Positions 23,530 to 27,373 of a stretch of DNA of 41,606 nt are shown piece by piece. This stretch comes from a candidate division Zixibacteria bacterium RBG_16_53_22. Lineage in GTDB: Bacteria > Zixibacteria > MSB-5A5 > UBA10806. The DNA is taken from the NCBI GenBank assembly GCA_001775395.1, contig MEWP01000008.1:1-41606 (forward strand). Reading direction: 5' to 3'. The translations under genes and the position numbers were made by a program. Within the stretch, counting starts at the first letter, position 1; each line of letters begins with the position of its first letter. Under the pieces are notes generated by a model. That model saw only the letters and a program-made list of their open reading frames with translations, was not told where the DNA came from and did not search any database.

Positions 23530-23853
23530 TTACCCTCCCAAGTTGTTGGAAAAACCTCAATGTTATGATTCTGACTTGATTTTTTTAACATAATCGCCAG
23601 GCTCCAGATTCGGAATCTGCGGCAAAGTCGAATAGCCGCCATCCATTCTTGAATATAAGGATAGTTGTGTCTAATTCAAGGGAAATGCGCATGGGTTTGG
23701 AAATATCGGTCTGGGGCGCCGAATGGCGAGATTTCAGGGCGGTCGCGCGGTCTCACCGGAAGGGGATCGGCCTGACATGTGGTCATATCTCTCAGTCGGG
23801 GGCATCGTTATCTATTGACTTGGCGGCATCGAAACCATAAATTTTCAGCCAGC
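23530..23853. other. Divergent intergenic region upstream of ftsK
   Basis: These 324 bases hold no supported gene; a 63-codon frame from 23649 has no ribosome binding site and no recognisable product. CAGATTC-G-GAATCTG (23605-23619) is a perfect 15-base palindrome and could be an operator. The ftsK promoter candidate is listed separately. Confidence 0.45.
23815..23843 (+). promoter_or_regulatory. Candidate promoter just before ftsK
   Basis: TTGACT (23815-23820) and TAAATT (23838-23843) are 17 bases apart. The ATG at 23854 follows only 10 bases after the -10 box, so a transcript from here would be nearly leaderless, consistent with the poor ribosome binding site of this gene. Confidence 0.35.
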
Positions 23854-26115
23854 ATGAAGCTCTTAAAGGAATTGGAGAGGGATAGCAGGAATAAGATCCT
23901 GGGGCTTCTGCTATTCATTCTCGCGCTTTTGCTCCTGGTAAGCTCGGTTTCGTACTATTTCGGGCAGGACCATGGCGGCATACGGGCCGGTATCAAGGCC
24001 GGCGAATATTCCCGGCTTTGGGACGCTGACCCGTCAAACCGCGGCGGCATCCTGGGCGGCGCTATCGCCGCATTCCTCGATATCATCTTCGGCATCTGTT
24101 CGATATTCATACCTTTTGGCCTGGCGCTGTGGGGGATCAACCGCTTTTTCGGCCACTCTTTGGAAAATTTGACCAAGCAGACCGCCCTGACAGTGTTCTT
24201 TCTCCTTACCCTGGTTGTCCTGATTTCCCTGTTTCAGGCCCGCGCGGATTTCTCGCTACTGGGGCTGACATTCGGCGGCGCACTCGGCCATTTCCTCGCC
24301 AGCGGGCTTGTCGCACTTGTGGGCAGCCTCGTGGCCTTTACTCTGGTCCTGTCGCTTTTCATAACCGGGCTGATATTCGTCGTTCCGTCAATTGTCTCGG
24401 GTGGACGTAAGAGGGTTCTCGAATCGGCCGGCGGTATTTTCCGGGCTGTCATGGAACGGCTCAAACCTGCTCGCAAAACCAAAGCCAGGGTGCTGACTGA
24501 AACAAAGATTCCCGACGGCGGCGCAGCAAAGTTCAGGAAAAAGGAATCGGGCGAACAGGAATCAGCTTCCTTCGATGACAAGACTGCGGCGGAAATCGCC
24601 GCCACCTCACATGCCCCCCTGATCCCGGGCGCCGATCAACCGGAGGTTTCGGCTCTCAATCGTGTCAAAAGCACCCGTGTTACGATAGAGAAAGGCTCTT
24701 ACCGCCTGCCATCGATAGAGCTTCTGAGTGAGCCGCCCAAGGATGGGCCCGTAGTCGACGATTCCTATTACAAGAAGACCGCCGAGGCCCTCAGGCACAC
24801 GCTTCTGACTTTCGGCGTCGAGATCGAGGGAGGCGAGGTCAATATCCTTCCCGGTCCGATCATCACGCGGTTCGAATTCAAACCGGCCTCCGGTATCAAG
24901 GTGGCTCAAATCGTGAACCTGGCCGATGATTTGGCGCTGGCCATGCAGGCCGAGCGAATCAGGATCGTGGCCCCCATACCTGGGAAGCCGGCCGTCGGTG
25001 TCGAGATACCTAACAAGGTCAAGCGTGGCATTTATATTCGCGAGATTGTCTCCTCCGCGGCTTTCATGCAGGGTGAGGGACGGCTCCTTATGGCGCTGGG
25101 CAAAACCATCAGCGGTGAGCCATACGTTGTCGACCTGGCCAGGATGCCGCATTTGCTAATTGCGGGAGCCACGGGAAGCGGTAAATCGGTCTGCCTGAAT
25201 TGTATCTTGACCAGCCTTATTTACAGGCTCCACCCCGACGAGTTGAGATTCATCCTGATCGATCCCAAGCGCCTGGAACTCTCTGTCTATGACGGCCTGC
25301 CGCACCTCGAAAAACCAGTCGTGACCGAGATGAAGGACTCCGAGAAGATGCTCTCCGACGCCGTGCTGGAGATGGAAGACCGCTACCGCCGCCTGGCCAG
25401 GGCCGGATGCCGTAATATCATTGAATTCAACAACCGCGAAAAAGATATCCTGCCATATTTGGTGATCGTTGTTGACGAGTTGGCCGACCTGATGATGAGC
25501 GGCCTGTCCCGTGTCGAGGCCCTGATAACGCGCTTGGCGCAGATGGCCCGGGCGGTCGGTATCCATCTGATATTGGCCACGCAAAGGCCGTCGGTTGATG
25601 TAATCACCGGGTTGATCAAGGCCAACTTCTCGACCCGCATCGCATTCCAGACAGCATCTAAAGTCGATTCGCGAACTATCCTCGATGCCAACGGAGCCGA
25701 AAAGCTCTTGGGTCGCGGCGACATGCTCTTTTCCAGCCCCGGTTTCGCCGAACCGATGAGGATACATGGCGCCTATATTTCGGTGGAGGAGACCGAGCGC
25801 CTGGTGGAATATATCAGCCAGCAGGAATACCGCACCAGGCCGATCGAGATATTCGAGAAGAGCGAGGAAGAATCTATCCCCGGATTCGATCCGGCCTCCG
25901 ATCCTCTCTTCAAGGAGGCTGTCGAGCTGGTCATTCGTCACAAACAGGGTTCTGTTTCGCTCTTACAGAGACGATTGGGTGTCGGCTACCAGCGGGCGGC
26001 GCGATTGATCGACCAGCTCGAGCAGTACGGCGTTGTCGGCCCTTACGATGGCAGCAAGGCCCGCGAGGTCCTGGTCGATGAATCTTTCCTGGATTCGAGA
26101 GAGTATAAGAAATAA
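23854..26115 (+). CDS. ftsK: DNA translocase FtsK/SpoIIIE
   Basis: The product is about 753 residues when started at ATG 23854 (MKLLKELERDSRNKILG); a frame open from 23779 would add residues that do not look like a membrane protein start. About four membrane spans fill the first about 180 residues. A charged linker, the FtsK alpha/beta ATPase with Walker A GATGSGKSVCLN and Walker B VIVVDELADLMM, and a C-terminal gamma winged-helix domain (GSVSLLQRRLGVGYQRAARLI) follow. It moves chromosomal DNA at the closing septum and activates dimer resolution. ftsK followed by lolA is a common pair in bacteria; here a RAYT element lies between them. Confidence 0.95.
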   Translation: MKLLKELERDSRNKILGLLLFILALLLLVSSVSYYFGQDHGGIRAGIKAGEYSRLWDADPSNRGGILGGAIAAFLDIIFGICSIFIPFGLALWGINRFFGHSLENLTKQTALTVFFLLTLVVLISLFQARADFSLLGLTFGGALGHFLASGLVALVGSLVAFTLVLSLFITGLIFVVPSIVSGGRKRVLESAGGIFRAVMERLKPARKTKARVLTETKIPDGGAAKFRKKESGEQESASFDDKTAAEIAATSHAPLIPGADQPEVSALNRVKSTRVTIEKGSYRLPSIELLSEPPKDGPVVDDSYYKKTAEALRHTLLTFGVEIEGGEVNILPGPIITRFEFKPASGIKVAQIVNLADDLALAMQAERIRIVAPIPGKPAVGVEIPNKVKRGIYIREIVSSAAFMQGEGRLLMALGKTISGEPYVVDLARMPHLLIAGATGSGKSVCLNCILTSLIYRLHPDELRFILIDPKRLELSVYDGLPHLEKPVVTEMKDSEKMLSDAVLEMEDRYRRLARAGCRNIIEFNNREKDILPYLVIVVDELADLMMSGLSRVEALITRLAQMARAVGIHLILATQRPSVDVITGLIKANFSTRIAFQTASKVDSRTILDANGAEKLLGRGDMLFSSPGFAEPMRIHGAYISVEETERLVEYISQQEYRTRPIEIFEKSEEESIPGFDPASDPLFKEAVELVIRHKQGSVSLLQRRLGVGYQRAARLIDQLEQYGVVGPYDGSKAREVLVDESFLDSREYKK

Positions 26116-26130
26116 CATCGGGAAGTTGCT

Positions 26131-26181
26131 GTAGGTCGGGTTCATCGAGCGAGGCCATTTGGACGAGCGGGGGAACCCGAC
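26131..26181 (+). repeat. Left REP of the RAYT unit
   Basis: GTCGGGTTC (26135-26143) pairs with GAACCCGAC (26173-26181). The interior has CGAG, GCC, ATTT, GGA, CGAG, the same core as the hairpin at 3146-3198. GTAGG precedes the stem. Confidence 0.8.
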
Positions 26182-26192
26182 AATCTGAGAAA

Positions 26193-26666
26193 ATGAAAAC
26201 GCTACGCCGAATCGATTTGAGAGAGAGGTTGTATTTTTTGACGGTGGTGACCGATGGCCGCCGGCGCCTGCTTTTGAAAGACGTGGACATCTTCTGGCAA
26301 AGCTGGGACGAGCAGGAATTGGATGCCTGGGTCATTCTGCCCGAACACTTCCATGTGATGCTGGCCAACGGCGCCAGGTGCATTTCGGAGATCATGCATC
26401 GCTTCAAGCGCAGGTACTCGACCCGGCACGCCTTCAAATTCGGAACCGGCAAAGTGTGGCAGAACCGGTTTTGGGACCACATTATCCGGGACGAAGACGA
26501 CTATCACCAGCACCTCGACTACATTCACTTCAATCCGGTGAAGCACGGGCTAGTTGAAAAGGCGCACGATTATCCCCATTCGTCCATTAAAAAATTCAAG
26601 GATTGGTATCCTGAGGATTGGGGCGTATTAGAGACCGAGGAGCCACAAGGTGAGTTCGGGGAATGA
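26193..26666 (+). CDS. REP-associated tyrosine transposase (RAYT, Y1_Tnp / IS200-like)
   Basis: The 157-residue protein shows the Y1 HUH nuclease features: LPEHFHVML with His52 and His54 as the metal-binding HUH pair, KVWQNRFWDHIIRD (87-100), and YIHFNPVKHGLV with Tyr110 as the likely catalytic residue. The YxxxNPVxxGLV ending is the mark of RAYTs, the domesticated relatives of IS200/IS605 transposases that cut single-stranded REP hairpins. All key residues are present, so it is probably active. The start at ATG 26193 has only a weak binding site. The flanking hairpins are probably its substrate. Confidence 0.9.
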   Translation: MKTLRRIDLRERLYFLTVVTDGRRRLLLKDVDIFWQSWDEQELDAWVILPEHFHVMLANGARCISEIMHRFKRRYSTRHAFKFGTGKVWQNRFWDHIIRDEDDYHQHLDYIHFNPVKHGLVEKAHDYPHSSIKKFKDWYPEDWGVLETEEPQGEFGE

Positions 26667-26668
26667 AT

Positions 26669-26723
26669 GTCGGGTTCCGCCGACCTCGTCCTGCGGACTC
26701 GGTCTTCATGAACCCGACCTACC
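26669..26723 (-). repeat. Right REP of the RAYT unit, inverted
   Basis: GTCGGGTTC (26669-26677) pairs with GAACCCGAC (26710-26718), followed by CTACC. Read on the minus strand it begins like the left REP, and its inner hairpin is CGAG, TCC, GCA, GGA, CGAG: the stem bases differ from the left copy but still pair. Confidence 0.78.
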
Positions 26724-26776
26724 GAGTATGAATTCATGAAAGTAGCATTTAGCGACCTGATTGGAGAATAAGCAAA

Positions 26777-27373
26777 ATGTTGGCCGTTTTTATAACCCTA
26801 GCCCTGTTAACCTTGACCACGGATCCCCACGGCGATGAGCTTCTGAACAAGATGGCGCAGCGATATTCGGCCGCCGAGGGTATCCAGTGGACCATGCAGT
26901 CATCGGTGCATTCCCCGGCATTCGATGAAACCGAGACGACACCGGTGGAATTCGCGTTCAATACCCCGGATACTTTCTATTTCAAAAGCCCTCAGGAGGA
27001 GATCCTGGGGATTGCCGACACTATCTGGGTCATGTCCAAGCGGCACAAGCAGATTCAGAAGAAGATGACCGAGGCTTATGTCATGCCTGCCGACCTGATC
27101 ATCAATTGGCACGAGCGCTACGATATCGAGGGGTACTCGGTCAAAAAGGGCGTGAACGAGTTCGAACTCGCCGGGCACGATGGTGTAAGACCAACAGCCT
27201 TGAGATTAACTGTCAGCAAGGACGACCGTATCCAGAAAATCTATTATGAGGATTCGTCGGGCAACGATGTTACCCTGAAAATCAAAAGCGAGAAGCTCCT
27301 CCGGGCGCCCAGGCTCAATCTGTTCCACCAGAGGGTGCCTAAGGGCTATAGAATCATCGACTTAACAGAATAG
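26777..27373 (+). CDS. lolA: Outer-membrane lipoprotein carrier protein LolA
   Basis: A signal peptide (MLAVFITLALLTLTT) leads a 198-residue protein with the LolA pattern: LLNKMAQRYSAAEGIQWTMQSSV at the mature start, then FAFNTPDTFYFKSP and a GDTIWV-like strand (ADTIWVMS), and KIYYEDSSGNDVTLKI near the end. LolA carries lipoproteins through the periplasm from LolCDE to the outer membrane; BamD, encoded nearby, is a likely client. GGAG lies about 10 bases before the ATG. It follows ftsK in the usual order, apart from the RAYT unit between them. Confidence 0.85.
   Translation: MLAVFITLALLTLTTDPHGDELLNKMAQRYSAAEGIQWTMQSSVHSPAFDETETTPVEFAFNTPDTFYFKSPQEEILGIADTIWVMSKRHKQIQKKMTEAYVMPADLIINWHERYDIEGYSVKKGVNEFELAGHDGVRPTALRLTVSKDDRIQKIYYEDSSGNDVTLKIKSEKLLRAPRLNLFHQRVPKGYRIIDLTE

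Follow-up and report, generated by a model that had tools for sequence, protein, structure and literature searches.

We have identified a REPtron in a genome of the Zixibacteria, in which the gene for a REP-associated tyrosine transposase (RAYT) lies between two inverted copies of its own cognate REP. The element is well formed, a textbook case, and was very probably gained between ftsK and lolA after this genome's lineage split from its nearest sequenced relatives. It occupies a small part of the window, by which we mean the whole 41,606-nucleotide stretch of contig MEWP01000008.1 that was analysed. The features of the unit and its surroundings are as follows.

23779..26115, forward strand: ftsK, the left neighbour (Pfam domains; syntenic in eight relatives)
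26116..26130, no strand: spacer of 15 bases from the ftsK stop to the left REP, without counterpart in the near-zero gap of the relatives
26131..26181, forward strand: left REP (GTAG foot 26131-26134; arms 26135-26143 and 26173-26181)
26193..26666 including the stop, forward strand: rayt (tnpA-REP), 157 aa (NF047646, 4er8 and residue alignment)
26669..26722, reverse strand: right REP (arms 26669-26677 and 26710-26718; CTAC 26719-26722)
26723..26776, no strand: spacer of 54 bases from the right REP to the lolA start, without counterpart in the relatives
26777..27373, forward strand: lolA-like gene, the right neighbour (TIGR00547 match and synteny)

The original prediction had described a RAYT gene framed by inverted REPs, the right one two bases from the stop codon. 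Both statements agree with the sequence: the outer arms, 15 nt each, are fully complementary (15/15), and the right REP begins at 26669, two bases past the TGA at 26664-26666. The span given for the element, 26131-26723, was correct at its start and one base too long at its end, as the right REP ends at 26722.

The gene had also been read as encoding a complete Y1 HUH transposase of the RAYT class, and the intact protein of 157 aa does possess the HUH motif and the tyrosine. It matches the NCBIfam model NF047646 ("REP-associated tyrosine transposase") with 118.3 bits against a cutoff of 80, and in a PDB search E. coli TnpA-REP (4ER8) was its only solved relative by sequence (E = 5e-20; ~35% identical), a match that settles the fold. 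The Pfam Y1_Tnp model fell short of E 0.001, although the RAYT assignment is safe because of the NCBIfam and PDB matches. Alignment to 4ER8 was used to identify H52/H54 as the HUH motif and Y110 as the catalytic tyrosine, the latter being the residue whose E. coli equivalent we take to be Y115. N114 aligns as a catalytic residue, the C-terminal GE is present, and W89, Q90 and R99 match the residues with which the E. coli enzyme contacts GTAG. All of these positions are invariant across a ten-sequence RAYT alignment. The roles of W94, Q95, R104 and N119 have been described in E. coli TnpA-REP, with GTAG contacted by the W, Q and R residues (PMC6006769). With the catalytic and GTAG-contact residues in place and the hairpins paired, the enzyme and its likely substrate both appear intact, as had been proposed. 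A plasmid search returned distant RAYTs only, all below 60% identity, E. coli RayT being ~35% identical among the matches listed.

Each side of the gene carries a GTAG-GTCGGGTT...AACCCGAC hairpin, the two in inverted orientation, so that the GTAG foot and palindromic stem by which a REPtron is recognized are found in both window REPs. Following the foot, both have the basal stem arms GTCGGGTTC/GAACCCGAC. The apical part of the left REP is of the GCGAG-TCC..GGA-CGAGC type with one mismatch, and the right REP differs from it in its apical hairpin, which reads GACC-GA-GTCC GCA GGAC-GA-GGTC. The left apical subtype resembles that of copy C46 and the right one that of copy C15; since the subtypes differ, neither window REP is a recent copy of the other. 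No exact copy of the 13-mer GTAGGTCGGGTTC exists in the window outside these two REPs, and with up to two mismatches it has 5 matches versus 0.72 expected.

As the original prediction implied, the REP is not confined to this site. An exact-stem search of the 169-contig assembly found 14 full REP hairpins (reversed control, 0), nine of which stand away from both RAYT units of this genome, while a half-site search allowing 1 mismatch gave 20 matches versus 12 for the control. Among 58 genomes, namely this one and its relatives, the hairpin was found in 22, and the reversed control pattern gave 0 in all. Public records of relatives bear the label Candidatus Zixiibacteriota. RAYT genomes usually have >100 REP copies (PMC2817692); beside this the full REP number here, 14, is low and counts against the REPtron reading.

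Within the REP class of the window, the foot and the eight-base basal stem are constant, and apical length and sequence vary among the copies of one genome. Most apical parts still self-fold, such as those of the relative G015, which alternate between GGTCG-CTT-CGACC, GTCCG-CTT-CGGAC, GCCCG-CTT-CGGGC and GATCG-CTT-CGATC. In a thermodynamic test against single-base shuffles, the apical parts of five genomes gave a mean z of -1.4 to -2.1, and of the 13 apical parts examined from this genome, 3 do not fold more stably than their own shuffles do on average. Because this signal is moderate, we describe the apical parts only as mostly self-complementary. Within each of G015, G053 and G028, the REPs have foot and basal stem in common, and the apical stem differs from copy to copy with its pairing mostly preserved. 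Di Nocera et al. 2013 (PMC3733652) had already reported variable loops that are self-complementary in GTAG-3 and GTAG-14 REPs, and compensating stem changes in REPs are on record too (PMC2817692); a variable self-complementary apical part is therefore no new principle.

The pairing of a RAYT with its own REP extends well beyond the window. A strict two-sided matched-hairpin test, which overlooks stems with imperfections and the ends of contigs, was passed by 32 of 75 distinct RAYT loci, and the same brackets as in the window surround RAYTs of 46-55% identity in other genomes. When placed on a tree of 61 RAYTs, REP stem class required 5 changes, where the minimum is 4 and the mean after shuffling is 17.7 (0/200 shuffles as low). 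The GTCGGGTT stem class to which the window REPs belong is explained by one change and falls on one side of one branch (0/500 shuffles as low). In other RAYT clades the stems read GTCAGGA, GTCGAAAC, GTCGGAAC or GGCAG, and their loops are short in most cases. Across Zixibacteria, REP stem sequence is tightly bound to RAYT clade, as is expected where the two co-evolve. In a record labelled Ignavibacterium (L161), a RAYT 52% identical has the same REP brackets; the unit was transferred from one phylum to another, or else the contig is mislabelled.

The unit separates two cell-envelope genes that are otherwise adjacent. FtsK, on the left, was recognized by its Pfam 4TM, alpha, FtsK and gamma domains, and the LolA-like protein on the right by TIGR00547 with E = 1e-7, a match below the curated cutoff. 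All eight nearest relatives (G001-G008) keep the order ftsK-lolA-rimO with no RAYT match in between. In the genus-mate G001, which is only 69% complete and yet has the junction, 2 bases lie between the ftsK stop and the lolA start, and in G002-G004 the two codons overlap or come close to doing so. Neither GTCGGGTT nor AACCCGAC occurs in any of the junctions read or checked among these eight, so relatives that lack the RAYT also lack the hairpins at the site, as the original prediction required. The empty junctions, together with the lack of any such hairpin in them, make insertion the parsimonious reading, and the window unit has the occupied and empty sites (insertion polymorphism) expected of an autonomous insertion sequence. 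In the window genome the ftsK-lolA gap measures 661 bases, of which the REP-RAYT-REP unit makes up 592. It had been claimed that the insertion point could be read directly; this is true of the site, which lies between ftsK and lolA and is empty in relatives, and not of the exact base, because 15 and 54 flanking bases without counterpart separate the REP edges from the genes. These flanking bases may have been co-inserted or may be later drift.

The REP-RAYT-REP unit probably came here as one piece, either by its own reaction or carried in through recombination, and parsimony applied to the compared junctions suggests that the unit is mobile as a whole. It is rather unlikely that it was instead assembled stepwise, with a solitary REP arriving first at ftsK-lolA, the RAYT and the second REP being added later by REP-REP recombination, and the unit never moving whole. 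REPs alone do land in this gap, as in G005 (L125, C78:50062-50084), where a solitary REP of another family, GTAGGGGCGTATTGCATATGCCC, is found that has 98 copies in that genome at <=2 mismatches, and from which the junction appears to have been struck by GTAG elements twice independently. The differing apical subtypes of the window's two REPs likewise fit assembly in steps. Such a history needs more events, however; no intermediate with the window REP is seen in any relative's junction, and two-sided brackets of like kind recur at unrelated sites. It is improbable that the hairpins act mainly at the transcript level, attenuating or protecting mRNA in the ftsK-lolA interval, with the RAYT as a passenger. 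Expression of nearby genes is known to be influenced by REPs (see the review PMC8049555), and those of the window do split the conserved ftsK-lolA-rimO order, but neither hairpin is followed by a T-run, and the inverted bracketing and the co-variation of RAYT and REP are left unexplained. It is very improbable that the unit was already here in the ancestor and disappeared from all relatives. A RAYT unit can stay where it is over time, as does unit 1 of G003 and G004, found in the same neighbourhood and diverging at an ftsK-like rate, but several independent losses would be needed, each restoring the 2-base gap or overlap of G001-G004.

For TnpA-REP of E. coli, Stenotrophomonas and Marinomonas, REP binding, cleavage and rejoining have been studied biochemically (PMC8266576). 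By analogy with these enzymes, the window RAYT would bind REPs that fold up in single-stranded DNA, with GTAG guiding the choice of a nearby dinucleotide, mostly CT. Y110 would then cut the strand beside the hairpin, forming a 5'-phosphotyrosine, and the strands would be rejoined (PMC8266576). Such a cut-and-rejoin reaction could seed REPs elsewhere and may have placed the unit itself.

A sibling REPtron is present on contig C29 of the same genome (G000, L120:4254-4940), with a RAYT 74% identical in protein to the window copy. It is bracketed by the same REPs, and a further inverted copy lies in the stretch from the upstream REP to the start codon, making three REPs in all. Comparison of the window RAYT (C8) with that of C29 gave a pN of 0.15 and a pS of 0.73 (dN/dS about 0.06), from which it follows that both genes are kept under purifying selection and that their split is old. 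With synonymous sites near saturation, the pair is uninformative on recent movement. Near-identical multiple copies, a sign of recent transposition, were not found, the nearest RAYT copy being this one at 74% protein identity. The 3.86 Mb genome has 21 RAYT-like matches, of which the majority are only distantly related to the window copy; at several of these loci the REPs are of other kinds or none was detected.

Among known systems, the window REPtron is a clear example of an established kind of element, here in Zixibacteria. It shares with the E. coli REPtron (RAYT group 2, 4ER8) a Y1 HUH enzyme whose catalytic residues and W/Q/R contacts to GTAG are the same, inverted GTAG REPs on either side of the gene, and a REP structure in which a basal and an upper stem are combined with internal mismatches. 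It differs in its ~35% protein identity, its GTCGGGTT basal stem, its low REP copy number and the presence of two related units in the genome rather than one. The GTAG-3 and GTAG-14 REPs (PMC3733652), to which the window REPs are likened by description only, also have a GTAG foot, a fixed basal stem and a self-complementary loop that differs between subfamilies, whereas in the window REP class apical sequence and length differ between almost all copies of one genome. IS200/IS605 elements similarly place a Y1 HUH transposase between subterminal hairpins and leave an empty site in relatives, while the window unit has inverted GTAG hairpins, a RAYT-specific family match and no sign that the gene recently spread to many copies. 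In the usual description RAYTs are domesticated, single-copy enzymes passed on vertically, and REPtrons seem not to move as units (PMC6006769, PMC8049555). We propose tentatively, as plausible rather than probable, that in Zixibacteria the whole REP-RAYT-REP unit is mobile, unlike the REPtrons studied so far, and that an apical hairpin of almost any sequence is tolerated as long as the GTAG foot and the basal stem stay unchanged. A limited literature search found no dedicated description of REPtrons in this little-studied phylum, whose genomes have many RAYT clades, each with its own REP. With these many clades, and with junctions that do or do not hold a unit, comparison can be used to test whether units move and how REPs are recognized.

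Other RAYT loci of the relatives were also inspected. In unit 1 of G003 and G004, the RAYT (dN 0.077, dS 0.67) diverges at the pace of ftsK (dN 0.069, dS 0.74), as expected from vertical persistence. These two complete genomes of the same genus were considered as a clean empty-site pair, for which they proved uninformative, with unit 1 in the same variable neighbourhood in both. A RAYT insertion in G003 with a duplicated flank of ~85 nt was set aside, being of another RAYT type and without GTAG REPs. This locus (L205:7301-8110) has non-GTAG palindromic ends and is inserted at a gene's start, with ~85 nt of gene start and upstream sequence on both sides, and G004 has a single empty copy (L206:7241-7420). 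At L204:7890-8465, G004 has a RAYT with double REPs between fabG-like and probable thiolase genes (names from gene ends only), and the matching junction of G003 (L202:11050-12000) holds an unrelated stretch and other REPs.
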